From a virus: a DNA stretch of 50,966 nt. Below the pieces are notes generated by a model. The model saw nothing but the letters and a program-made list of their open reading frames with translations, had not been told where the DNA came from and did not search any database. Made by a program: the position numbers and the translations under genes. The stretch is taken from the IMG/VR virus record IMGVR_UViG_3300036785_000671, positions 1-50,966 of that record, one strand, 5' to 3'. Shown here one piece after another: positions 2,662 through 41,317 of the stretch (its first letter is position 1; each line of letters starts with the position of its first letter).

Positions 2662-5600
2662 ATGGCTTACAAAGCGGCCATAAAGATTACTCCTCAGTTT
2701 GATCCTGCTGGTGATTTGCAGAAATTGACATTGACTGTGCAAAGATTGAATGCACAGACTCAGCAGCTTAATCAAAAGTTTTCAGCACGAATACTTCCAT
2801 TTAACCCTAAGCTTCAATCCAACAGCCAACTAATCACACAACACAGCCGACGTACCGCTCGAGCTATAGATAGGCTCGAGCGAATTTTTAATAGCGTTGT
2901 GAGTCGATTGATACAGACACTAGGAGGAATGTCTAGGTTCATAATCAGAGGATTTAACGTCGAGGCATTCGTTATATCCCCGGTTATGGGTCTAATAGGA
3001 TCGGTAAGCCTGGGTATCTTACCGATGATGCTTGCTACGGCAACTGGAATATTCAAATGGTTGTGGAATAAGGTTGCAGAACTAGGTGATGCAATGATAC
3101 AGGACCGTATGCTCGCAATGCGTGCGGGCACCACGGTCGGGGCGATAAGAGCGTTTAGAACTGCTTTCCCTATGATTAATGATCCCAATTTAATTGGGAA
3201 CGTTGCTCTTACTCGTATTGACCTAACTAGCCGAGCAACATCTGTTCTACATTGGCTTTTGAAGGTTAAAAAGTCTAATGATTCAATGACGGTTATTGTA
3301 GATACCCTTATTCAAGCCAGGGAATTTATGAAGAAAGAATCTGCTGATAGGGCCATTTTGAGTGCCCAAAACTTTAAATTGTTAGAAACTATGAATGCTC
3401 AAACTTTATTGAACTTGCGTGAAATGACTGATGACGAATTTATGCATACGATTGAACAATATCATACCCTACGACCAAGATTTTCACAAACTGTAGAAGC
3501 CCAGAATATGCTTGTTGATTTTATTCTTCAAATAAAAAGAATGTGGATTAATATCGAAACAAAACTTGGAAAGACATTAGTAGAGACTGGCATTACGAAA
3601 TCTTTAGAAAACTTGAGTAAGGCTACATTAGATTTTATTGATTTTGGATTACATCTACCGGTTACTCAAAGAATGTTTAAGGGTTTAGAAGGAGATATAC
3701 AGTGGTTTGCTGATTGGTTGGGTGATACCAAAAATCAGAAAAGAGTTGGTAAAATTGTTCAAGATATGATACTTAATTTTGAAAAAGGAGTTGCATACTT
3801 AGTAGAATTTTCTGGTAATGTAGAAGAAGCCCGTGAAATGCGCCGGGAAATTCTGCGCTTTGAAGCCCGTAAAGGGCGTCGTGAACGTGGACTTCCTGCA
3901 AGGCCACGACGTATGCCTGGGGTTCCTGGTGGAGTAGTTAGGTCTTTTGGACCTAAGCTGCCGGAAGGGCAAAGACTACAACCCGATCAAACTAGAAAGC
4001 CAGTGCCTACAGAAAAACCAGATTCATCAGGAACACGTCCCCAAACTCCATCTACTCCAACGACGAGAGCAACACCTCCTACTGGTACATCGCCTTCAAC
4101 GCCTTCTACTACTGCTCCAGGTTCAACTCGACCAGCTCTAACTCCTACTCCGTTAGGACCGTATAATCGACCACGCGGTCCTGCGATTGAACACCCACAT
4201 TGGACTCGACACCCTACCAAGGTTCGTCCTTCTCCTTTTCCAGCTCCTGCTCGCCCCGCTCCTGCCCCCGCTCCTGCCCCCGTTGCTCCTGCTCCTACTC
4301 CACCTACTGCTTCACCTAAATTGGGTGAAACTCGTGTAAGACCTGATGGTAAGATTGAACAGTGGAATGGTTATCAGTGGCAAGGACCAGTTGCGCCAGG
4401 AGGAACAGGTCGCCCCGTGCCTGCGCCTGCTCCTGCTCCTATTCCTGTCCCTTCACCACGACCATCTAATGTACCTCTAGGTCCTTATAACCGTCAACGT
4501 GGTGATCCACGTTGGACTCGACATCCTCAAGCCCCTTTAGAGCCTTCTGGTCGCCCAAGGGATGCCCCGTTTACAGGAGATCCGTTTACTGCGGCAAGAG
4601 TCCCAGGTCAAAGGGGGGGACCTTCTGGTCCGGCTGCGTATGGTCCGCCCAAGCCACCGTTTCAACCGGTTACGGAAGATGATATAATTCAGCGTCGGTT
4701 TAGAACAAATCAACGAGTACCAATAGATCCACGCCGGTATCCTGATCGCCCGTCTGGTAGGCCCAGAGATGCTCCGTTTACAGGGGCTCCCCCTACTACA
4801 GCAGGAATTCCGAGTTTAATAGAACAGCAGCGTGCTCCTCTTAGACCTTCTGGTCGTCCTAGAGATGCTCCGTTTACTGGAGGTCAATTTGATCCTGTTA
4901 CAGGGATGCCGCGTAGTGCAGTCGGAATTCCAGGTGCAGTGGGTGGACCTTCTGGTCCTGCTGCTCCTAGGGCTCCGGTAATTCCTGTGACTCGTGGACC
5001 ATTACCTTTTGAACCGCCTAAACCTCCGATGCAACCAATTATAGAAGGTGATAGAATACCACGTCCGTTTAGAACAGGTCAAAGAGTACCAATAGATCCG
5101 AATAGGTATCCATTGCCATCTGGCAGGCCCAGAGATACACCGTTTACCGGCGCACCTCCGTCCGCAGCCGGTGTTCGTGGAGCTCAAGGTGGACCTTCTG
5201 GTGCTGCGGCATATGGTCCACCTAAACCACGACCAGGTTCAGAAATTCTGGATAATGACATTATAACACGTCAATTTAGAACGGGGCAACGAGTTCCAAT
5301 AGATCCGCGTCGATATCCTGACAGACCTTCTGGTCGTCCTAGAGATGCTCCGTTTACGGGAAGACCTTATGACCCGGTTGGCGTGGCTCCCTTGACAGAA
5401 CGTCAGGAAAGGTTGTCTCGTCCATCTCCATTTCCTGGACCTCCCACTGCTCCTGCTCCTAGTCCTGCTCCTGCTCCTACTACTTCTGGTGTACCTTCAA
5501 CTCGTACTGCTCCTACTGGTTCAGTTCCTTCTCCGGTAGGACAACAAGTTTTACCACCATCGGCTACTGTCGGTGTACGACCCCCATTTCAAGCTGGTCC

Positions 5601-7539
5601 TCCACCGTTAGTAGCTGGACCGGGTGGAAAGGTAAATGAAACAGATTTCTATAGTAATGTAAGAGAAAAATTTAGACTTTCTCCATTGAATGGTTTTGTT
5701 CCTAAAGACGGTGATAGATGGGGTATTAAAACTGGAAGTCCTGATGAATGGGCCAGATTGGCGGTTGCAACAGCAAAACAAGAAAATAATATGGACGCTA
5801 CTCCTAATAAAGATGGTGGAATGCTTCAATTTAAACAGGAAGATCTTAAGCGTTTGGGTGTCACAGGTAATGTTGCTGATCCAAATGCACAGACACAAGC
5901 TCTCGTAAATCAGTGGTCAAAAAATGTCCCTGCATCTGGTGTTTTTAGTTCACCTGTTCCAAAAGGAACACCAGGATCAACTACTTTTTCTAATGGTAGT
6001 ACGTGGGGTGGAGCAGGAACAGAATTTGGATCATTGCAATGGGGTCCGACTGCAACTAATTTGAAAACAATACCAAGTCGATTGGAACATGCAGATATAG
6101 AAAAACATCTGCCTGCGGCGGATGAACTGCAAAAACAAGTTGGAGTACAAAATGCGGCTGATGCGCCAATGTGGGATAGGCCATGGGAGAAAGTGAAAGC
6201 AACATCTGGTGATACCGGTTATGTTGGGACCGGTGGGTTTAATTTCATGGGGAGTAAGCGAGCTAGAGATATGGGGATGGGAGATGTTTCCCTGTATTCT
6301 GCTACAGCTCAACAAACATTTGAGACAGGAATCACTGATGGAAAAGGACCAGCAGTCATTCGTGCGAATAAATACGCTGGTCCTGATATAGCTGGTTTCT
6401 TAAAAGATCTGCATGATGCCGGTGCTCCTCTTAAAGATTTTGCTGGTGCTTATGTTCAAAAACCTCGACAACACGGTCATGGTAACGCGGTAGATATTGA
6501 AACTGGATTTGGTGGTGGGCCTGATAATAGCCCTGCTCTATATAAATGGGCTAAGGAAAATCCTGAATTATTTCAAAAAATACAAGATGATCATCATATG
6601 AAGAACCTTACTAAAGAAGCTAGTGGTGTGAATGATTGGGGGCATTTTGAATGGTCGCCACAAAGAAAGGCTACACCGGCCGAAATGGAGGCTCGTAAAA
6701 AGAGTAATTGGCCCGATTCTAAAGAGGCAAAAGAAGGAGTAGCTCCTAAGGGTCTTCCCACTGGTGATGATCAAACATATACTAAAGATTGGGCTGTACC
6801 GAATACGGTGTTAGGAAGAGAACAATGGAAATGGACTCAGCCGAATGCCGGGGTTCCTTCTACAAATCAGCCTTCAACTACAGTGACACCGACTGGTAAA
6901 CCATGGCCAACTGTTGATGTGCCAAAAGCATTGGAAAAAATGCAGACAGATCCTGAAACTGGTCAACAAATATTCCCTAGAGAAAGGCTTACTCCACAAA
7001 AAGGTGGAATTCCTGCGCCACATGTTCCTCATCTTCCTAAAATGGTGAAAGGAGCTCCTTATAGAGGAATATTTGATACACCTAAAGATGTTCCTTGGTA
7101 TCTTGATACACCATCTACCTCACTTGTGCCTACTGATTTAAAGAATAAGAAGAAGAATGAACCTGCTCAAAAACCTCCACCTCCAAGATGGACTGAAGGA
7201 GAAGCTCTTCCCTATACTAATTATGATCCTAATGCAAATCCAATGGATAATTTGAGAATATTGAATAGTTCTGATGCAAGAGCGACATGGGCCAAGCCAT
7301 ACGGTTCAGATGTTCGTGATATTCCATATCCCCCGGCAGAGGATAAACCCAAAACCCAGGTTGAAGATCCTGATAAGGGTGAAAAGAAAAATCAAGATAC
7401 AGACAAGCCGAAAGATTCTGATAAACCGACTAAAGATAATGATAAACCAGCTCAAGATTCTGATAATAATAATTCTGATTCTAATACTTCTACAGACGCA
7501 CCTACTGCTGAAGATCATCCTGCCGACACGGATTCCTAA
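2662..7539 (+). CDS. Giant tape-measure-like tail protein with repeat linker and murein hydrolase-like domains
   Basis: A 1625-residue protein right after the chaperones. Residues 1-60 are coiled-coil-like and 95-145 are strongly hydrophobic (two membrane-prone segments), as in tape measures. A helical part runs to about 400. Residues ~420-1000 form a long Pro/Ala/Arg linker with five copies of a 12-residue motif (PSGRPRDAPFTG) at 628, 697, 729, 819 and 889. From ~1030 there is a lysozyme/transglycosylase-like block (AKQENNMDA ... DGGMLQFK). At 1271-1278 and 1328-1330 lie HGHGNAVD and HFE, fitting the zinc ligands and catalytic Glu of M15-type (VanY/LAS) peptidases. The tail end is Asp/Lys/Pro-rich. 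The protein probably sets tail length and digests peptidoglycan locally at DNA entry. Hydrolase activity is inferred from motifs only. Confidence 0.7.
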   Translation: MAYKAAIKITPQFDPAGDLQKLTLTVQRLNAQTQQLNQKFSARILPFNPKLQSNSQLITQHSRRTARAIDRLERIFNSVVSRLIQTLGGMSRFIIRGFNVEAFVISPVMGLIGSVSLGILPMMLATATGIFKWLWNKVAELGDAMIQDRMLAMRAGTTVGAIRAFRTAFPMINDPNLIGNVALTRIDLTSRATSVLHWLLKVKKSNDSMTVIVDTLIQAREFMKKESADRAILSAQNFKLLETMNAQTLLNLREMTDDEFMHTIEQYHTLRPRFSQTVEAQNMLVDFILQIKRMWINIETKLGKTLVETGITKSLENLSKATLDFIDFGLHLPVTQRMFKGLEGDIQWFADWLGDTKNQKRVGKIVQDMILNFEKGVAYLVEFSGNVEEAREMRREILRFEARKGRRERGLPARPRRMPGVPGGVVRSFGPKLPEGQRLQPDQTRKPVPTEKPDSSGTRPQTPSTPTTRATPPTGTSPSTPSTTAPGSTRPALTPTPLGPYNRPRGPAIEHPHWTRHPTKVRPSPFPAPARPAPAPAPAPVAPAPTPPTASPKLGETRVRPDGKIEQWNGYQWQGPVAPGGTGRPVPAPAPAPIPVPSPRPSNVPLGPYNRQRGDPRWTRHPQAPLEPSGRPRDAPFTGDPFTAARVPGQRGGPSGPAAYGPPKPPFQPVTEDDIIQRRFRTNQRVPIDPRRYPDRPSGRPRDAPFTGAPPTTAGIPSLIEQQRAPLRPSGRPRDAPFTGGQFDPVTGMPRSAVGIPGAVGGPSGPAAPRAPVIPVTRGPLPFEPPKPPMQPIIEGDRIPRPFRTGQRVPIDPNRYPLPSGRPRDTPFTGAPPSAAGVRGAQGGPSGAAAYGPPKPRPGSEILDNDIITRQFRTGQRVPIDPRRYPDRPSGRPRDAPFTGRPYDPVGVAPLTERQERLSRPSPFPGPPTAPAPSPAPAPTTSGVPSTRTAPTGSVPSPVGQQVLPPSATVGVRPPFQAGPPPLVAGPGGKVNETDFYSNVREKFRLSPLNGFVPKDGDRWGIKTGSPDEWARLAVATAKQENNMDATPNKDGGMLQFKQEDLKRLGVTGNVADPNAQTQALVNQWSKNVPASGVFSSPVPKGTPGSTTFSNGSTWGGAGTEFGSLQWGPTATNLKTIPSRLEHADIEKHLPAADELQKQVGVQNAADAPMWDRPWEKVKATSGDTGYVGTGGFNFMGSKRARDMGMGDVSLYSATAQQTFETGITDGKGPAVIRANKYAGPDIAGFLKDLHDAGAPLKDFAGAYVQKPRQHGHGNAVDIETGFGGGPDNSPALYKWAKENPELFQKIQDDHHMKNLTKEASGVNDWGHFEWSPQRKATPAEMEARKKSNWPDSKEAKEGVAPKGLPTGDDQTYTKDWAVPNTVLGREQWKWTQPNAGVPSTNQPSTTVTPTGKPWPTVDVPKALEKMQTDPETGQQIFPRERLTPQKGGIPAPHVPHLPKMVKGAPYRGIFDTPKDVPWYLDTPSTSLVPTDLKNKKKNEPAQKPPPPRWTEGEALPYTNYDPNANPMDNLRILNSSDARATWAKPYGSDVRDIPYPPAEDKPKTQVEDPDKGEKKNQDTDKPKDSDKPTKDNDKPAQDSDNNNSDSNTSTDAPTAEDHPADTDS
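4543..5361 (+). repeat. Tandem protein-repeat tract in the tape-measure gene
   Basis: The coding DNA contains five imperfect copies of a 36-nt unit coding for PSGRPRDAPFTG (4543, 4750, 4846, 5116, 5326; the fourth has Thr for Ala). They are interleaved with three copies of a second unit (FRT-QRVPIDP-RYP) and three of a third (GGPSG-AA-PP-P). Together they make irregular modules of 32-90 residues. Two further copies of a PLGPYN...WTRHP unit sit just upstream (about 4150 and 4480). Synonymous codons differ between copies, so the array is old or under protein-level selection rather than a fresh DNA expansion. Confidence 0.85.
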
Positions 7540-27318: not shown

Positions 27319-27351
27319 AAAAAATGGACCCCGCCTGCCGGGGCAGGGTCC
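27319..27351 (-). terminator. Intrinsic terminator
   Basis: Read on the - strand, a GC-rich hairpin (outer stem GGACCC with GGGTCC, inner GCC with GGC) is followed by ATTTTTTCT. It lies after the 27368-27772 gene and ends right before the exonuclease start codon. It should stop most transcripts from the promoter at 27808 and may attenuate the downstream operon. Confidence 0.8.
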
Positions 27352-27367
27352 AAGGCTGGGAACGCCC

Positions 27368-30954: not shown

Positions 30955-31484
30955 TAGATGCTGCTCCCTCTATTTCTGAGCCATTGGTTAACGTTCATGG
31001 ACATGCATGATTCACTCGCTAGACGTTGAGCTTCGTACATTGTATCTCTCATTATAGCTTCTGCGTACTTGTTACCTAGATTCATTTCATGTTCACCAGT
31101 TTCATGCATCTCCAGCAGATCACATATTTTTACTTGGATTCTTTCTTCTTTAGTTAGTTCTGGAAGCCGGAGTTCAAGTTGTCGTAAGCCAATAGCTTCA
31201 CCCTTTTCCATTCCTTCTTTTAGCTCAGGAATTTGTTTCTTAATGCTATAGGGAACATCCCCCGCCCATAGTTCACCACTATCATGATGCAGGCAATAAT
31301 AGAGTACTTCTGCACGAGGAATTCCAAACACTTCTGTGAATATACAAGCGACGCGCCAGCAATGATGTCCGACCGTCTGCTCCTTTATCATAGGCCAAGT
31401 ATGATATCGCTTGACACATCCAGCTAAGTATCGAGAACTATAGATATTGTGGCGGTCAATCACGACATCCTCCTTCTTATCCAC
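30954..31484 (-). CDS. HD-domain 5'-nucleotidase-like phosphohydrolase (YfbR type)
   Basis: A 176-residue HD hydrolase. VKRYHTW (24-30), VGHHCWRVA (39-46), LHHDSGELWAGD (65-76) give the metal-binding His/His-Asp/Asp set and the Arg typical of YfbR-like deoxyribonucleoside 5'-monophosphatases. It would act on dNMPs to reshape the nucleotide pool, for example removing a canonical pyrimidine or its monophosphate. It overlaps the 3' end of the thymidylate-synthase-family gene by 25 nt, supporting a shared pathway. Confidence 0.75.
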   Translation of the reverse strand: MDKKEDVVIDRHNIYSSRYLAGCVKRYHTWPMIKEQTVGHHCWRVACIFTEVFGIPRAEVLYYCLHHDSGELWAGDVPYSIKKQIPELKEGMEKGEAIGLRQLELRLPELTKEERIQVKICDLLEMHETGEHEMNLGNKYAEAIMRDTMYEAQRLASESCMSMNVNQWLRNRGSSI

Positions 31485-32464
31485 TCAGTACCAGCCTTCC
31501 GCCAGTCTTCTGCAATAACTTCTTCTATCTTTTCTAAAGCCCCACCTATATCTTTTTTCTTATATAGATAATGCGCCTCAGCCATAGGTAGAACAACCTG
31601 TGCTAAAAATGGATTAGTGATATTTCCGCTATAAGCTTCTTCGTCCTTGTGTATGTCTTCTATCCATTGCATAGTTTCTTCCAATTCATTGTCAAACGAT
31701 TCAGGATATTTAATAAGAGGCTGTGTTCCTTCATAATCCCATCCATTCTTTAAAGCCACATATAAATTTCCTGTTGATCCAATTCGCTTCTGTAACATCG
31801 CCAGATGTTCTGTATAAAAATGTAGGTTAGTTGATATCTGCCAATATCGACCTACTTCAACCCCTACCATGCTCGCTATATATTCCTGCATCATTGGGAA
31901 ATGAACTGCGTTGGCACCACAGCATCCCCATATTAAATCATTAGACCGATTAAACACAGTCATGTCTAATTTCTTAGCATTGTTTAGAATACGAAATGTA
32001 GCTACAAGATTACAGGGTTTGATAATACTCGGTGTCACTAAATCACCATCCCACATTTGAAGTACAGCTTGCCGGGTAGAAGGGTTTCTTTTCAACTGCT
32101 TAATGATTTCACGCAGTTGATCGTATCCTAACTGAGTTCTCCACCTATGCCCGTATGCATCTGGGATTATACCATGTTCATCCCCATAGTTTTTACTGAA
32201 ATCTTTGATATAATAGTCCAGAAATTCCCCATCATTTCTACCTGCAAGCATCCACATAGCTTCCATTAAATGAAAGAAGGGATTCGCATCTCTTACTTCA
32301 TTTACTAGAACATGCTGTTTAGGATACTCATAGCGAATACTAACTGGTGATGGACTAACCCAAGCATCACCATTCCTGGTCTTTTCTTTATTACCAGAAT
32401 GTAAAACGTGTCGAACTGCTTTCGGAAGTGCATCCCTCACGTTAGCCGCATTTATCATATACAT
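31460..32464 (-). CDS. Thymidylate synthase family pyrimidine (hydroxy)methylase
   Basis: A 334-residue protein; I choose ATG 32464 because GGGGGAG lies seven bases upstream. The family motifs are AYGHRWR (103-109), RQAVLQMW (131-138), catalytic Cys 151 in the variant KPCNL (PCN instead of PCH), NRSNDLIWGCCGANAVHFP (172-190) and HFYTEHL. Asn 185 occupies the place where thymidylate synthases have Asn and dCMP hydroxymethylases Asp, so dUMP is the likelier substrate. Next to modification genes it may make 5-hydroxymethyl-dUMP rather than dTMP; methyl versus hydroxymethyl cannot be told from these motifs. It overlaps the nucleotidyltransferase by 23 nt. Confidence 0.8.
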   Translation of the reverse strand: MYMINAANVRDALPKAVRHVLHSGNKEKTRNGDAWVSPSPVSIRYEYPKQHVLVNEVRDANPFFHLMEAMWMLAGRNDGEFLDYYIKDFSKNYGDEHGIIPDAYGHRWRTQLGYDQLREIIKQLKRNPSTRQAVLQMWDGDLVTPSIIKPCNLVATFRILNNAKKLDMTVFNRSNDLIWGCCGANAVHFPMMQEYIASMVGVEVGRYWQISTNLHFYTEHLAMLQKRIGSTGNLYVALKNGWDYEGTQPLIKYPESFDNELEETMQWIEDIHKDEEAYSGNITNPFLAQVVLPMAEAHYLYKKKDIGGALEKIEEVIAEDWRKAGTEWIRRRMS

Positions 32465-33134
32465 GTGTTTCTCCCCCTTCCAATACGATGCGTGCACCAC
32501 TCAACTTTACATCACGTGGAGTTCCCCAGTCTATTGGGGTATAGAGTGTTTGCTGAGCTTCTTTTTCACATATCATAAGATCAAACACATGGCTCAAATA
32601 AGGTTCTGAATATCCTTCACACACCTCCCCTAAAATAGTCATAAACTGTGGGACTGCATCAGGAGCCACGAAGTAAGCACCTCGCACAGCATATTCAGAT
32701 ATCCGTTCCTTTTCTTTAATACGTGAAAAATTGTGAAGCTTATCAACATAGGAAAAGGCCGGATTAGCACTTCGACTTACCAGCACTCCAATACCGGTAC
32801 GAAGTTCTGTTAATAACGAAAGATCATTGGTAGAATTGAGTATATCAGAATCCATTATTAAACATGACTGAGGGCCTATGGATTCTAAAACCTTCTTGGT
32901 AGTTTCTGCGGGACCCTTTGTATCAACAATTTGAACCCATCCTCGACTACACTTATATCGAGGAGGAACTGCTGCAACTACATGTATCAATTCCCAAGGA
33001 ACTGTATGAACTACATGTTCAATCATTGGCATAGTTGTGCCTTGCCACATGATATCAATAAACGGTTTGGGAGTCATGTATCCATCTTCCCGAAACCTCT
33101 TGCTCTGTCCAGCCGCTAGGATAATCACATGCAT
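32442..33134 (-). CDS. Sugar-phosphate-type nucleotidyltransferase
   Basis: A 230-residue GT-A/NTP_transferase protein. The N-terminus IILAAGQSKRF ... TPKPFIDI is the nucleotide-binding loop of NDP-sugar pyrophosphorylases and LicC/IspD-like cytidylyltransferases (Arg 13, Lys 23). IMDSDIL (Asp 95, Asp 97) is the metal site. It would join an NTP to a phosphorylated sugar, amino alcohol or similar acceptor. The upstream gene, overlapping by 80 nt, is a small-molecule kinase, so the pair can make an activated NDP-linked donor for the glycosyltransferases next to them. Substrate unknown. Confidence 0.75.
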   Translation of the reverse strand: MHVIILAAGQSKRFREDGYMTPKPFIDIMWQGTTMPMIEHVVHTVPWELIHVVAAVPPRYKCSRGWVQIVDTKGPAETTKKVLESIGPQSCLIMDSDILNSTNDLSLLTELRTGIGVLVSRSANPAFSYVDKLHNFSRIKEKERISEYAVRGAYFVAPDAVPQFMTILGEVCEGYSEPYLSHVFDLMICEKEAQQTLYTPIDWGTPRDVKLSGARIVLEGGETHVYDKCG

Positions 33135-33801
33135 TTTCTAACTCCTTGCTTACCCTGGTTGCCCATTGGGTCGCGCTGTCAAAGATATCCCTTTTAGCGA
33201 TTCGTTGTAAAGCGACCATTGCCCAGAAGACTGCTCTTCTTGCAGTATCATAGTCCTGCATAAAATTAGGCCATTCATATGATATCTTTTCATGACCACG
33301 TAGTACGACTTCCCACCCAAGAAAAGACTGAAGCATTTTACCATGATCTACTGCCACTATGCTCGGTTTCCTTAGCCATAGTTTTGGGATAGGGTCAATT
33401 AACCTCATGAACCCATCCTTTGTTATCATTACATTATCCAGTGTTGGGTCCCCATGTATTAAGGAACGGCTCCATACATGCTGTTCCAAAAATCTTTCTA
33501 ACACTAATAAGGAATCAAAATTATGCTCAATAGGATACAAATACTCCATGCAATAAGCACCGTCGTATACCATAAGGATCTTTGGACAAACGTGTTCCCC
33601 CAAATATCCCATGAACCGGGCTTGATCCTCGGCATATCCTGGTGGGCGCATTCTTTTGAAGACAGCCACACAGATTTCTGCATCACTATACCCATGCATT
33701 TCTGTTGCGAAATGGGGCGTAGGAACGTAGTCTGCCTTGTATTTTAGCGAAATCTCAGCTAACTGCCGTAGCTTCGATTTGAGCTCGGTAGCGTCGGCCA
33801 T
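33055..33801 (-). CDS. APH/choline-kinase-fold small-molecule kinase
   Basis: A 248-residue protein with the aminoglycoside phosphotransferase/choline kinase core: LIHGDPTLDNVMI (His 116, Asp 118, Asn 123) and LIDPIP (Asp 136). The ATP-lobe is short, and its Lys is not obvious to me. Such kinases phosphorylate a hydroxyl of a small molecule. The overlap with the nucleotidyltransferase on one side (80 nt) and a glycosyltransferase on the other (47 nt) suggests the product is activated and then transferred, as in LicA/LicC-type pairs. The acceptor is unknown. Confidence 0.7.
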   Translation of the reverse strand: MADATELKSKLRQLAEISLKYKADYVPTPHFATEMHGYSDAEICVAVFKRMRPPGYAEDQARFMGYLGEHVCPKILMVYDGAYCMEYLYPIEHNFDSLLVLERFLEQHVWSRSLIHGDPTLDNVMITKDGFMRLIDPIPKLWLRKPSIVAVDHGKMLQSFLGWEVVLRGHEKISYEWPNFMQDYDTARRAVFWAMVALQRIAKRDIFDSATQWATRVSKELENACDYPSGWTEQEVSGRWIHDSQTVY

Positions 33802-34567
33802 CCTCTAGTGCCTTCTGCCACTGAACTATCACCTCTACCCTTGGCGTACTCGCCTTATACGCACGTTCTACAGTAGAAACATAGCTTGGAAATAGTTCCT
33901 TCAGTTTATGAGCTTCAGCATTTGAAATTTCTACTGTGCGTTCAAAACTAGTTCCACCCGGTTTATCATATCCACGCTGGTCCACGACCGTTGTGTGATA
34001 CACCGCATTAGGATAACCCTTCACCAATAACTGCAACGCCAATTCCATATCTTCCCGCAGCGCAATTCGCCGGAAAACGCATTCCTTTATGACCACCGGT
34101 AGATAGTATCCTAGAGCATAGCACATCTTACCGGGTGATTTCCAGCCGACTTCTTCTAGCTGGTTATTTCCTTGCCGCTGACCAAATCCTGCATGTGGTG
34201 TTTCTGGGCTAAGTCTTTCAGCAATACGTTCGAACTCTGGTATTAATTCTTCGCCTTTTATTTCCCGTAAGTGCCAATCTGTTTCACTAATACGGGTGGC
34301 AAACCGCAAGTCATCATCTAACATAATGATCTTTTCTTCCCCACGCCTATGAAATTCCTCTAATATCCAGGCACGTTTATCACCAATTTTCATATCTGGA
34401 TCAGGTTGTGGGATGTATTCTGGCACGCCAGAAACATATTGAGCTGATAATTTAAAGATTTCTTTCTTTGGGGCGACAATGGTAGTTTGTTCCCTCAGTA
34501 CCTTCGGCAACATGCTGAGGGTTAACTGCTGGTCTGTACGACCGCGAGTTGGTATTACTATCCGCAT
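33755..34567 (-). CDS. Glycosyltransferase, TET-associated-GT-like (copy 1)
   Basis: A 270-residue GT-A fold protein. IVIPTRGR at residues 3-10 is the nucleotide-binding start. IIMLDDDLRF holds the metal-binding DDD (84-86). A late acidic helix (REDMELALQLL) and DKPGGTSFE complete the pattern. Sequences of this kind are known from phages with hypermodified DNA, where they are thought to transfer a sugar to a hydroxymethylated base. The 34630 gene shares the same four blocks, so the two are paralogues. Sugar donor and base acceptor are unknown. Confidence 0.65.
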   Translation of the reverse strand: MRIVIPTRGRTDQQLTLSMLPKVLREQTTIVAPKKEIFKLSAQYVSGVPEYIPQPDPDMKIGDKRAWILEEFHRRGEEKIIMLDDDLRFATRISETDWHLREIKGEELIPEFERIAERLSPETPHAGFGQRQGNNQLEEVGWKSPGKMCYALGYYLPVVIKECVFRRIALREDMELALQLLVKGYPNAVYHTTVVDQRGYDKPGGTSFERTVEISNAEAHKLKELFPSYVSTVERAYKASTPRVEVIVQWQKALEDGRRYRAQIEATAVS

Positions 34568-34629
34568 TTTAAGTGGCCTCTATGTTTACCCTAACATGGT
34601 GGAATTCACTTTACAAGTTCAAAGGCAGT

Positions 34630-35376
34630 CTACCCACAGTCTATACCACCTTGACGCATTGCTTCCTTCCATTTATACTTAACATGACGTGGCCCTGGAT
34701 CTACAATGCCTCCCCAATATTGCTTGAGTAAATTGTGAGCCTCATCAAGGACCTGTTGATTGCGCCAATCACTGCAACCTCCGGGGCGGTCGGACTTACT
34801 CATCTTACTAAATTCTGTACTGACAGCGGTTTTTATCCCCCGTGTGAGAAATTGTAGATGCACATCGTGCTCTTCATCATGTGGCACACGAAAAGCAGGC
34901 CATGGATCTGGGAATAAATCCCGATTGTATCCGTGGATATCATTAAACCGAGTACATTCTTTGAATTCCCTAGGGGTAAGATGGCTCCATGCCTTATCTA
35001 CCAGACCTACCATGGGGTATCTGTCTAGTAGATCGAACATGGCCCCGATCATACGTTCTGTGGCTTCTATTTCGTATGGCTGAATACGGGCAAATTTTGA
35101 ATCTGATAGACGTTGGTAGAAGGCAAGGTCATCATCTATCATAATTACCTTACCGGTATTTCGCATGTGTAGAATAAACTGTCGGGTGGGACCAATACCA
35201 TATGCATCACATGGTGTGATATGAACATCCGGAAAAGCTTCTTGGTACAATTCTACTTGTTCAGGTGGAACTACAAGTGTCACGTAATGCCATAGCCGTC
35301 TAGAAAGATTCATAAGCGACTTTTGCTTGTAGTGCCTGGACCGGGAAGGAATCACAATCTGTAGATCACCGAACAT
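34630..35376 (-). CDS. Glycosyltransferase, TET-associated-GT-like (copy 2)
   Basis: A 248-residue protein from ATG 35376, chosen for a GGAGG five bases upstream; longer starts up to 35451 are open. IVIPSRSR (7-14), VIMIDDDLAF (DDD 81-83), an acidic helix (DEEHDVHLQFL) and DRPGGCSDWRNQ mirror the blocks of the 33755 protein. It would be a second sugar transferase acting on the same or a derived base. It overlaps the thymine pyrophosphorylase-like gene by 11 nt, and 62 nt separate it from the other transferase. Confidence 0.65.
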   Translation of the reverse strand: MFGDLQIVIPSRSRHYKQKSLMNLSRRLWHYVTLVVPPEQVELYQEAFPDVHITPCDAYGIGPTRQFILHMRNTGKVIMIDDDLAFYQRLSDSKFARIQPYEIEATERMIGAMFDLLDRYPMVGLVDKAWSHLTPREFKECTRFNDIHGYNRDLFPDPWPAFRVPHDEEHDVHLQFLTRGIKTAVSTEFSKMSKSDRPGGCSDWRNQQVLDEAHNLLKQYWGGIVDPGPRHVKYKWKEAMRQGGIDCG

Positions 35377-36277
35377 TTGGCCCTCCATGTTTGAACGTTT
35401 GCCGTGGGCGGCCCCATCCATTAACTGTCTTCGTATACTTGCTCCATTCACAAAGACAGTTTTGTAGGTCTTGGTTGTGCAGGCGTTCCATTCCCATGCT
35501 ATTCAGCTTTGGGTTTATCCGATTGCTCAATAGCGTAAGTTCTTGCAGCCATTGACCCTTCGGCCATGGTTCCTCCATAGGACGTTCTAATACAATGTTC
35601 AAACCGCGCATACTTCCCGGTCCAGGAGTAGCCCAAGACCACCAATCTTTTGCTTCTTGCATGAATGGTAGATACTTGAGGTCTGCTACAAGCTGTCCAG
35701 TCATAAAGCTTCCCAGACCCTCATTCTGTAACCATTCAAACATTTCACATAGCAATGGAGAATGCGTTTGCCATGCTTCAAACGTCCTTCGCCAGCTCTT
35801 TTGAACACACCATTGATGAATGTAGTGGCAGACGCCTTCTCCTTTAGGAAACCCTGGCTTCCCGGTGATGATAAAGGAACCGGTTACATGAGGAGTGGGA
35901 AGTTTTAGTATAAGATCTGTTAGTATAGTAACATCATTGTGATTAATATACTTTTCAAATACAGATTCGTTATCAAGCAGAGGTTCATTAAAAAGAGCAT
36001 CACAAGTGCTAATACGATTAAACCAACGATAGGCCACCGTCGCAGGAAATACGATAGCATCCTCGGTATATCTGTTACGGATAGATCGCTGATAATGTTT
36101 GGATACAGCATCGTCTTCCCTATGTACATTTGTGAACCTATATTCTTGTAGAATAGGGTCTTTAGTCCATGGCGGTGGGTCACTTCTTTCAAACCTGCGA
36201 AACCGTATGGTTTCGCGTTCGAATATAAAAGCCACGAATCTGTCTATGGGGTCATTGATTTCTGTGATGTGTACCAT
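35366..36277 (-). CDS. Thymine-hypermodification protein (aGPT-PPlase / 5-hmdU kinase helical domain)
   Basis: A 303-residue helical protein. FIFERETIRFRRF (17-29), PPPWTKDPILQEYRFTNVHR (34-53), and a late PGPGSMRGLN (~224-233) match the alpha-glutamyl/putrescinyl-thymine pyrophosphorylase / 5-hmdU DNA kinase helical-domain family, a glycosylase-related fold found in phages that replace thymine with elaborate derivatives. Known relatives act on 5-hmdU in DNA, either fused to a P-loop kinase or by installing the side group. No P-loop is visible here. This is the strongest indicator that the cluster hypermodifies thymine. Confidence 0.75.
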   Translation of the reverse strand: MVHITEINDPIDRFVAFIFERETIRFRRFERSDPPPWTKDPILQEYRFTNVHREDDAVSKHYQRSIRNRYTEDAIVFPATVAYRWFNRISTCDALFNEPLLDNESVFEKYINHNDVTILTDLILKLPTPHVTGSFIITGKPGFPKGEGVCHYIHQWCVQKSWRRTFEAWQTHSPLLCEMFEWLQNEGLGSFMTGQLVADLKYLPFMQEAKDWWSWATPGPGSMRGLNIVLERPMEEPWPKGQWLQELTLLSNRINPKLNSMGMERLHNQDLQNCLCEWSKYTKTVNGWGRPRQTFKHGGPNVR

Positions 36278-38581: not shown

Positions 38582-39379
38582 TTAGAAGGGGATTTCAGAC
38601 TCTGTACTCCCCGCCTCTTCGTGCCTTGCATCGGGAGCTGCGGCTTTCTTTTCACCCTTACGAACTGCCATGCATAAGGCTTTGGCTTCGCTGTATTCAG
38701 TCTTATTCACAAACCCTTCATCCTGGAACTTAAGACCGAACCACTTACCGATAGCGTTGCTCGCAGGAATCGTGGTTAACCGGTATCTTCGGCTGAAGCT
38801 CGGCAAGAAGTCATTGGTTTGGGGGTGCTTAAACTGTTTGTAGAAGGTGTTCCATTGCCGAGCGAAGGTATGTTTTGTCCCACTACATGGAAGAACGTAG
38901 GGCTGTCCGTCCACAAGCAAGAAAAATTCCCTTGTGTCCTGGATTACGTTCCCATTTTCACCACGAACAAGGACTTGCTTTTCACGACCATCATCCCCGC
39001 GTACCATACTGGTCTTCATATCAAGGGGCGGGGCATCATGTCTTGCAACAAATCCCTGCCGGTTAGGAAGCCACTCGATCCATGTGCGCTGCATTTCACA
39101 TGGAATCACAATGATTCCTTCTTCGCCGTTTTTGATAGGTTCTAGGGCATTTCGCAGCCAAAAGTCACCCGGTTCGGCTCCCTCGATATGATTATCCCCA
39201 CGCTTGTCAACAGCCGGGGAATTTGTCTGGAGGACGTATATAAGAGGAAGTAGTTGGTCTTCAGGCTTGAAACTGATGCCCATTCCGGCATCGCCCTTGG
39301 TAACTTCCATTAAGTCGTCTGGAAGTTGAGCTTTGCTCGTAGTCAACGCTGTGCTGGACTCTTTCGGTTCTTTAGCCAT
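38582..39379 (-). CDS. SSB-like protein with acidic EIPF tail
   Basis: A 265-residue protein; ATG 39379 is chosen because AGGAG lies eight bases upstream. Its end, EEAGSTESEIPF, resembles the acidic Phe-terminated tip of single-stranded-DNA-binding proteins (DDDIPF). The body (LLPLIYVLQTNSP, GIIVIPCEMQRTWIEWL, REFFLLVDGQPYVL, a late Trp/Phe-rich helix) is beta-rich and belongs to a phage family I have seen near replication genes without a named domain. It has its own promoter at 39484. ssDNA binding is an inference from the tail and the context. Confidence 0.5.
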   Translation of the reverse strand: MAKEPKESSTALTTSKAQLPDDLMEVTKGDAGMGISFKPEDQLLPLIYVLQTNSPAVDKRGDNHIEGAEPGDFWLRNALEPIKNGEEGIIVIPCEMQRTWIEWLPNRQGFVARHDAPPLDMKTSMVRGDDGREKQVLVRGENGNVIQDTREFFLLVDGQPYVLPCSGTKHTFARQWNTFYKQFKHPQTNDFLPSFSRRYRLTTIPASNAIGKWFGLKFQDEGFVNKTEYSEAKALCMAVRKGEKKAAAPDARHEEAGSTESEIPF

Positions 39380-39483
39380 TGTCATCACTCCTGGTTCCAC
39401 AGAACCTCTTCGCCGGGCGCTTACAGTCGCCCCTACAGTTTGAAGCACGTCTATTCGTACTGGCGAAAGATTCTGCTGCGGGT
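39380..39483 (-). other. Leader between promoter and SSB-like gene
   Basis: About 100 nt read on the - strand from the likely start site near 39477 to the SSB-like gene. It holds a GC-rich inverted segment (GCGCCCGGCG around 39412-39421) and no reading frame of its own. It ends in the AGGAG ribosome-binding site. Confidence 0.35.
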
Positions 39484-39514: not shown

Positions 39515-39889
39515 TCAAATATTCTTCAAGCTATCATTTAACGAGCTTTCTGCTATTTTTTCATTAGCAGCTACCCGTTTCACATATCCAGCAATACGCT
39601 TCAATCGCTTGTGAAAGTCTTGTGTCATAGGTAATATCACACAAGCGCACGAATGTTCATAGCTAGAAGCGTGCTCTAGCCATGTATCCCGGGACTTCAC
39701 ACTCCTGCTGGATTCGACCAGCAATGCCTTTCCTTTCTTGCCTGGTTTTGTCGGAAGCTTCCGTCCTATACACACGTATTCTATAGGATTAAGCCGATTG
39801 AACATTTGCCAGAGGGCCTTGCCTTTCCCTCCACATAGAGGGCAGTTTGGCAATGGCTTCCGCCTCCAGCCGGGTGGCAGGCTGCTCAT
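39515..39889 (-). CDS. Hypothetical protein with zinc-knuckle-like start
   Basis: A 124-residue basic protein; ATG 39889 has an AAAGGA ribosome-binding site six bases upstream, so a frame from 39934 is not needed. CPLCGGKGKALW (near residue 16) followed by a Cys in YVCIG could form a zinc ribbon, with further CAC at ~83-85. The C-terminal half is helical and Lys/Arg-rich. Function unknown. A ~235-nt structured leader precedes it. Confidence 0.5.
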   Translation of the reverse strand: MSSLPPGWRRKPLPNCPLCGGKGKALWQMFNRLNPIEYVCIGRKLPTKPGKKGKALLVESSRSVKSRDTWLEHASSYEHSCACVILPMTQDFHKRLKRIAGYVKRVAANEKIAESSLNDSLKNI

Positions 39890-39894
39890 TTTCT

Positions 39895-40124
39895 GTTCCT
39901 TTGGTAGGGGGTGGCCTAGGTGCGCGGGGCGCAATCTAAGCCATGGGCGGCCACGCTAGGGGCGTGGGAGCGCGTCAAAACAAGGTGGGCTGGCCAGCCC
40001 GTAGTTCTGCATCGTAGCCATCTGGTGCGGCATTCGCGCCGTAACACGTTTTCGTCGCGCAACTACTTCGGTGCAGCTAAAGCATGGGGTGGACCAATTT
40101 GGGCTCAGTCCATTACTACGCTGC
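39895..40124 (-). ncRNA. Candidate structured RNA or long 5' leader
   Basis: Between the promoter at 40131 and the 39889 start codon lies ~230 nt with no frame on the transcribed strand that I trust. Its predicted 5' end coincides with an arm (40125-40116) that pairs with 40017-40008: TGCA and CGTAG against CTACG and TGCA, with one mismatch. Further inside or downstream are a 5-bp TGGAC/GTCCA hairpin, CGGC/GCCG (40028-40041), the perfect palindrome GGGCTGGCCAGCCC (39987-40000), a 6-bp CCACGC/GCGTGG hairpin (39951-39967) and TGCGC/GCGCA (39921-39933). No terminator T run is visible, so it may be a leader. Confidence 0.5.
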
Positions 40125-40130
40125 AACCTT

Positions 40131-40159
40131 AGTAAAGCAAAATAGCTTACGGAGCGCAA
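40131..40159 (-). promoter_or_regulatory. Sigma70-like promoter
   Basis: On the - strand: TTGCGC (-35), 17 bp, TTTACT (-10). The whole element, including several upstream bases and the second half of the spacer (ATTTTGC), is nearly identical to the promoter at 40707. It drives the structured leader and the 39889 gene. Confidence 0.75.
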
Positions 40160-40166
40160 GTTCAAA

Positions 40167-40679
40167 TTATTTCGTGTATTTTCTGATGTATTCACCAACC
40201 TCCTTGATATGTTCAATCAAGGTGTCCCTTGATTTCCTCGCTTCGGCTGGTGATTGGGAATAGATTTCCTTGATAAGATCGACGCAGTGCTTCTGAACCT
40301 TCTGAAGCTTAGACTTGGGTTCAGGACGGGGGTTATTGCTGACAAGCCGTAAGGCGTCATTCACACTTAAATATCGTTGGGGAGATTCCGCAGCTAGCTC
40401 TAGAATTTCCTTACGATTTTCGAAGAGCCTCATCCAACTGCTGGCGGTGCTGTGACTGAATTCAAAGTGTTGCTTCAACCACGAAATCCACTTGCCGTAG
40501 AGCACCTTTCGTTTAGCCTTTGTAAGATGTTCCCCGGCACTGATAGCACTCCTTAAAGCGTCATGTGATGATTCGATAGCATCCCTGGCACAGATAGTAA
40601 TCTTTTCGACCAAATCATCCAGGTCAGCCTTATTCCTTTCAGTGCAGTAGAGTAGAGCAGTTTCTGTATTCGGTTGCAT
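40167..40679 (-). CDS. DUF3102 family protein, possible DNA-binding
   Basis: A 170-residue helical protein; ATG 40679 has AGGAGG eight bases upstream (the ATG at 40685 is too close to it). AGEHLTKAKRKVLYGKWISW ... FEFSHSTASSWMRLFENRKE is the DUF3102 pattern: a helix, a 'G.W..WL' turn and a helix-turn-helix-like 'S..TA..WMRL'. Members are often found with ParB-like or replication genes. It may bind DNA to regulate replication or transcription. Confidence 0.65.
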   Translation of the reverse strand: MQPNTETALLYCTERNKADLDDLVEKITICARDAIESSHDALRSAISAGEHLTKAKRKVLYGKWISWLKQHFEFSHSTASSWMRLFENRKEILELAAESPQRYLSVNDALRLVSNNPRPEPKSKLQKVQKHCVDLIKEIYSQSPAEARKSRDTLIEHIKEVGEYIRKYTK

Positions 40680-40706
40680 GTTCATTCCTCCTAGCTTAAG
40701 GATAAA

Positions 40707-40735
40707 AGTAAAGCAAAATATTCCATGGAGCGCAA
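40707..40735 (-). promoter_or_regulatory. Sigma70-like promoter
   Basis: On the - strand: TTGCGC (-35), 17 bp, TTTACT (-10), start near 40700, then a 20-nt leader with AGGAGG before the DUF3102 gene. Twin of the promoter at 40131. Confidence 0.75.
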
Positions 40736-40744
40736 GTTCAAATT

Positions 40745-41317
40745 TTATCCCTGCTTGATCTTTACTTCATCAAAGACATATGCTCCTAAAAGATCCATTG
40801 GGACTACATGATTTCTTTGGAGTTCACCTTTGATAAATGCTTTGAGTGTCATATGATGAACTGATTCATTGGTATAGTATTGAATATGATTTTCAGTCAA
40901 AAGCTTCATTACCTTGAGTCTTTCTTCATGTTCTTGCATTCCAAATTGAATTGTGATAACTGATTTCACCAAATCACCATGACCGGCAGCTTCAAACCAG
41001 TTCAAGGCTTCTAAACGGCGTTCGTCAGGTATCTTAGCCCCATATACTGTTGAACGTTGAGCAATGAATCCAGGGTGATTGCCATCGGGTTCTACAGTAA
41101 TGCTAGAAAGATTAGCATCATTAAACATGTCGATAAGTTCATGGCGTTCAACATGGGAAATTTTCCCATTGAGTTCCACTATTTGATTTTCCAAATCTGT
41201 CTTACGTAACTGGAGGTCCCGTAATTCCACAGCCTTCTTACGTATAATGTTAAGGTCTGTTACTTTAGCTGGGACCGGGTCTGTCGCAACTTCGTCTAAG
41301 ATTTCTTGCTCGGACAT
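40745..41317 (-). CDS. Conserved-type phage hypothetical protein with coiled coil
   Basis: A 190-residue protein. Residues ~20-60 form a coiled coil (RKKAVELRDLQLRKTDLENQ, then IVELNGKISHVERHE). A compact alpha/beta domain follows (SSITVEPDGNHPGFIAQRST ... ALNWFEAAGHGDLVKSVITI ... MKLLTENHIQYYTNESVHHM). The layout is seen in replication-region phage proteins, but I cannot name it; a Gam-like end-binding protein is one thought, not supported by a motif. AAGGA precedes the ATG. Confidence 0.55.
   Translation of the reverse strand: MSEQEILDEVATDPVPAKVTDLNIIRKKAVELRDLQLRKTDLENQIVELNGKISHVERHELIDMFNDANLSSITVEPDGNHPGFIAQRSTVYGAKIPDERRLEALNWFEAAGHGDLVKSVITIQFGMQEHEERLKVMKLLTENHIQYYTNESVHHMTLKAFIKGELQRNHVVPMDLLGAYVFDEVKIKQG

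Follow-up and report, generated by a model that had tools for sequence, protein, structure and literature searches.

The window analysed here, the 51-kb record of an uncultured virus, carries on its minus strand a 138-nt structured RNA module (39987-40124) that runs from the predicted start of a sigma-70-type promoter, which coincides with the first paired base, to a palindromic hairpin. That the module is a conserved structured RNA, its pairing kept through two-sided changes in independent lineages, is well supported; judged by its sequence, it is a genuine, previously uncatalogued and narrowly distributed phage RNA element of a known general kind. As to its role, we hold with middling confidence that it would act as a phage-encoded, cis-acting structured 5' leader at an internal promoter of the leftward run of replication and DNA-modification genes. 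Such a leader is the most economical account of the arrangement; the function itself is what we infer.

The leftward genes extend from about 42.1 kb to 24.0 kb, a run about 18 kb long that includes gp33-like (40745-41317) and gp34-like (38582-39382) genes and genes for a UvrD-type helicase, an HMUDK_hel protein (HMUDK_hel being the 5-hmdU DNA kinase helical domain), TET-associated glycosyltransferases, a thymidylate-synthase-like protein and a family A DNA polymerase. The interval between the gp33-like and gp34-like genes holds a DUF3102 gene (40167-40685), the RNA module and a gene for a 124-aa protein (39515-39889, minus strand). Some other features of the window deserve mention in their own right: the minus-strand genes at 31460-36277, namely the thymidylate-synthase-like, HMUDK_hel and two TET-associated glycosyltransferase genes, suggest thymine hypermodification; one strong intrinsic terminator-like site, an 11-bp stem with TTTTTT, lies on the minus strand inside the leftward run (27325-27352); and a large plus-strand ORF (2662-7539) contains, at 4531-5361, direct repeats that have diverged to 75-97% identity and measure about 40-140 bp.

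Motif scans of viral and genome collections yielded only two credible homologues of the module. One, L001, is a phage nearly identical to the window (99.3% over 6 kb); the other, L009, is a diverged uncultured phage whose gp34-like protein is 77% and 124-aa protein 46% identical at the amino acid level, whose genes are about 68-75% identical in nucleotides, and in which promoter, RNA and 124-aa gene follow one another in the same order as in the window. Other matches from the motif scan had neither the promoter nor the downstream elements and were judged to be chance, and a weak match to the covariance model described below (L020/G003/G004, E 0.004-0.03) fell within a coding HTH gene and was dismissed. 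Comparison with phage and plasmid records revealed no DNA similarity, and the searches made found no homologue of the module beyond the clade of the window, L001 and L009. Four relatives with gp34 proteins 61-65% identical (L019-L022) have neither promoter nor RNA, and in cultured relatives (Xanthomonas FoX7, Burkholderia WTB and BcepF1, tabernarius, kaset, DSL-LC04) the gp34-like gene is separated from the preceding one by little or no sequence. In two relatives the variable slot that the RNA module occupies in the window, upstream of the gp34-like gene, is taken by TIGR-Tas systems (L020:3196-5455 and L022:3390-4945): the Tas protein scores above the cut-off for NCBIfam NF052498 in both, and after the Tas gene come arrays whose units, each about 36 bp long, have two 9-10-nt repeats in alternation and spacers of about 9 nt.

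The promoter is an extended -10 promoter, TTGCGC-N17-TGCTTTACT (40131-40159), kept in L001 and L009, with TTGCGC (40159-40154) as its -35, a 17-nt spacer ending in TGC, and TTTACT (40136-40131) as its -10. The module begins after a 6-nt gap 3' of it, and the usual promoter spacing predicts +1 near 40124. The proposal in the earlier note of a promoter ending at 40131 was borne out: its fixed positions, TTGAACTTGCGCTCC...TATTTTGCTTTACT, recur exactly at 40741-40707, a match that appeared in none of 100 shuffles of the window. This second copy (40707-40735) immediately precedes the DUF3102 gene, from which a short leader separates it, and has no RNA module. By a matrix made from five copies the two in the window score about 36 (36.9 for 40131-40159), against a shuffled maximum of about 11; elsewhere there are two copies in L009 and one more at another place in G001. 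The last belongs to a close relative of the window phage (L007:1500-1586; G001:11963), where a further copy of this promoter class stands upstream of a 147-aa gene, with a possible hairpin GCTGG...CCAGC near +1. The paired copies are in direct orientation (window 40131-40168 and 40707-40744; L009 3265-3300 and 4361-4400) and flank different cargo, the DUF3102 gene in the window and two other genes in L009, which suggests cassette exchange by recombination between the promoter repeats.

The 5' hairpin domain of the module (40073-40124) consists of an invariant closing helix, P1 (40124-40120 with 40077-40073), P1a (40119-40116 with 40086-40082), a conserved UAA/CCC internal loop, and P1b (40112-40105 with 40097-40090), five of whose eight pairs are doubly changed between lineages. 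Downstream come P2, a hairpin with a UACG loop (40035-40048; 40048-40044 with 40039-40035) in which one pair is changed on both sides and three on one side only, all still pairing; an alternative CGGC/GCCG hairpin that overlaps it (40041-40038 with 40031-40028); and the palindromic GC hairpin P4 (39987-40000), with two doubly changed pairs. As first noticed, and as can be read directly from the sequence, P4 (GGGCTGGCCAGCCC) is a perfect 14-nt palindrome, one of five in the window; L009 has a different perfect 14-nt palindrome, GCCCTGCGCAGGGC, in its place, and the chance of such a palindrome is 1.3-1.6% in each leader. The 5' hairpin domain folds with z-scores of -2.7 in the window and -4.9 in L009. 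Folding energy alone is unremarkable, at z -2.0 for the whole leader and -1.0 for the 138-nt module in the window, close to that of shuffled sequence, and the case for structure rests accordingly on comparison.

A covariance model was built from the window and L001 alone, its input structure having been drawn with L009 in view. The L009 sequence that follows the same promoter matched it from end to end (58.8 bits, E = 1e-13). In the model-fitted alignment all 27 modelled pairs form in each of the three sequences, which represent two independent lineages, and eight are changed on both sides. None of 500 shuffles reached eight double changes with every pair formed, and partners slid out of register pair at only 26-41%. 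In column shuffles of the same fitted alignment, nine jointly possible helices of at least 5 bp were observed where 1.7 were expected, and four helices with a double change against 0.44 (P = 0.0025). Since the model structure made use of L009 and the alignment leans towards the model, checks independent of it matter. One such is the P1b segment: between an invariant AGTAA and CCCC the two lineages use different letters, yet each makes a flush 8-bp stem, without any model fitting, the chance of this in shuffles being 0.002 and 0.0007 in the two lineages and jointly about 1e-6. Unguided alignment of the 3' part recovers P2 and P4 (z about -3.7); applied to the 5' domain, such an alignment puts the hairpin out of place, with a z of only -2.4. 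Loop and closing-strand letters are identical at 13/14, 6/6, 7/7 and 17/18 positions, those of the P1b hairpin at 4/16.

Minus-strand coding conserved through the stretch was looked for, having been named earlier as the result that would refute an RNA, and was not found: no reading frame is conserved through the module, all three forward frames running into stops in L009, and the one stop-free antisense frame shows no conserved peptide by eye. A leader peptide starting at GAATG (40033) was considered and rejected, having no visible ribosome-binding site and no conserved sequence. Rfam 15 at its gathering threshold returned no family anywhere in the window, and at E<=10 nothing but unrelated families scoring well short of threshold (15.2 and 14.2 bits at best).

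The 5' strand of the module has two possible partners. The earlier note had the transcript closed by a long-range helix (40125-40116 with 40017-40008; 40008-40125 overall), joining TGCAGCGTAG to CTACGATGCA on the minus strand and sharing its 5' strand with P1/P1a. This helix exists, with nine of ten pairs Watson-Crick and G40121/A40012 as the only mismatch; when the 5' 10-mer is dinucleotide-shuffled, a partner this good turns up in 0.9% of cases, or 4.8% if the start is allowed to float by 8 nt. In L009 each of the eight pairs counted is formed, one of them through a compensatory change (U40118-A40015 to C-G), covariation that by itself is weak (P about 0.055 in column shuffles). P1/P1a, on the same strand, is invariant or conservatively changed, and folding favours this local helix over the long-range one, with a margin of 1-2 kcal/mol for the window and L001 that grows to about 4 for L009. 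The proximal and distal pairings are mutually exclusive and both are possible in all the sequences, so that the long-range helix is perhaps one of two alternative states of a two-state RNA. What stands of the broader proposal of a functional RNA or leader with a paired 5' end is structure from the predicted start, a promoter-RNA-gene linkage kept in a diverged relative and eight doubly changed pairs; the helix that pairs that end may be the long-range one or its competitor, local P1.

If the module is a cis-acting leader, a transcript from 40124 would read the 39889 gene, the gp34-like gene and the first part of the leftward replication and DNA-modification run. Its paired 5' end could shield the mRNA from 5'-end-dependent decay, and the conserved unpaired UAA/CCC loop, together with a 5' strand that can pair in two mutually exclusive ways, suggests a protein- or ligand-dependent switch, one that might affect passage or translation past the terminal hairpin.

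The downstream boundary bears on this reading. A structured RNA of about 230 nt reaching to the 39889 gene had been proposed, and the distance from 40124 to the ATG is indeed 235 nt; the conserved unit, however, already ends at P4 (39987), and L009 lacks most of the final 97 nt before the gene. In the window P4 is followed by a weak U-rich tail, ACCUUGUUUUG (39976-39986), and a GC-rich, non-conserved linker (39890-39975) with a ribosome-binding site, AAAGGA (39902-39897); L009 has neither, and there only 5 nt separate P4 from the AUG, where the window has 97 nt that are unrelated and include a ribosome-binding site of their own. The 3' arm of the L009 palindrome contains the AGGG that precedes the AUG, and control of translation through P4 in the L009 manner cannot work likewise in the window, whose AUG is 97 nt more distant; this counts against the leader. 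As to the gene itself, an upstream start codon is argued against by a 1-nt indel relative to L001 that lies 5' of the ATG. The 124-aa protein has a CPxCxGKG motif and no Pfam, PHROG, NCBIfam or PADLOC family match; its AlphaFold model (pLDDT 49) is uninformative, and a PDB profile search returned only designed coiled coils and chance matches.

A discrete RNA would explain at least as well as a leader why the module ends so cleanly at P4, and the main rival, which we consider somewhat unlikely, is a trans-acting phage sRNA of about 138-150 nt, started at 40124 and ended by P4 and the U-rich tail, with read-through or other transcripts supplying the downstream gene. In both lineages conservation breaks off exactly at P4 and all that lies beyond differs, and in the window P4 with ACCUUGUUUUG was scored terminator-like by a simple scan. 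That score was obtained in the window only, though, and such hits are no commoner there than in shuffles; the tail is poor and set apart from the stem, is weak in L001 too, and is not kept in L009, where the sequence after P4 (AUCUUAUG) is not called a terminator and the downstream gene begins within 5 nt. The GC hairpin is conserved, but not the U-tract that would directly follow it in an intrinsic terminator.

A second alternative is a processive antiterminator like put, in which the nascent 5' hairpins would bind RNA polymerase and cause terminators in the leftward run to be read through. An irregular hairpin starting at the promoter's +1 is found in putL (PMC9378689), and the run is about 18 kb long with one strong same-strand intrinsic terminator, at 27352-27325; but the module is longer and has a third, palindromic hairpin, and only chance-length matches of 8-12 nt link it to a 5.5-kb stretch of HK022 (25.5-31.0 kb) within which put itself was not pinpointed. 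We regard this as distinctly unlikely, and as quite improbable the analogy in its fuller form, a bistable, protein-free put-like antiterminator of independent origin serving the replication and DNA-modification run in uncultured phages distantly related to Lindbergviridae-type phages.

That there is no functional RNA here, just a conserved promoter followed by a short conserved sequence whose hairpins are accidental or belong to the DNA as palindromes, is already disfavoured and in our estimate very improbable: the single-sequence folding z-scores are modest and the relatives amount to one close and one diverged, but the compensatory changes, and the stronger conservation of loop letters than of the P1b stem, speak for RNA. 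Barely credible is an RNA antitoxin of type III toxin-antitoxin kind with the 39889 protein as its partner, since the order of promoter, structured RNA, hairpin and small gene resembles ToxIN-type loci but there are no tandem repeats in 39890-40130, neither 124-aa homologue matches a ToxN, CptN or TenpN family, and the locus sits in a phage replication gene run.

To our knowledge few structured RNAs of lytic phages have been described outside model systems, and in the present module the boundaries are defined, the 5' end is predicted and the structure lends itself to testing. The two conserved genes around it enclose a variable slot, which in other relatives serves for RNA-guided TIGR-Tas cassettes. 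If the module turns out to work as an antiterminator, or as a leader gated by a ligand, it would be a compact regulatory RNA that comes with a conserved promoter.

Among known systems, the put RNA of HK022 is about 70 nt long and folds into two stem-loops (PMC9378689). Like putL and putR, the module would be a structured nascent RNA at or near the +1 of a phage promoter, with irregular hairpins, upstream of a long early gene run; unlike them it measures 138 nt and has a third, palindromic hairpin, and its matches in the HK022 stretch compared are of chance length only. Leaders of the ompA type, whose 5'-terminal stem-loops stabilise bacterial mRNAs, resemble it in having the 5' end in a helix from the first nucleotides and the ribosome-binding site further down, whereas its conserved internal-loop letters and alternative long-range pairings exceed the needs of a plain stabiliser. 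ToxIN-type loci, in which promoter, RNA, hairpin and small gene follow in that order, share this layout with the module's locus but differ in that the module has no tandem RNA repeats and the downstream protein no toxin homology. With attenuator and riboswitch leaders the module shares mutually exclusive, conserved pairings of the 5' strand and then a terminal GC hairpin before the gene; it departs from them in having no Rfam family match and a U-tract that is poor and not conserved.
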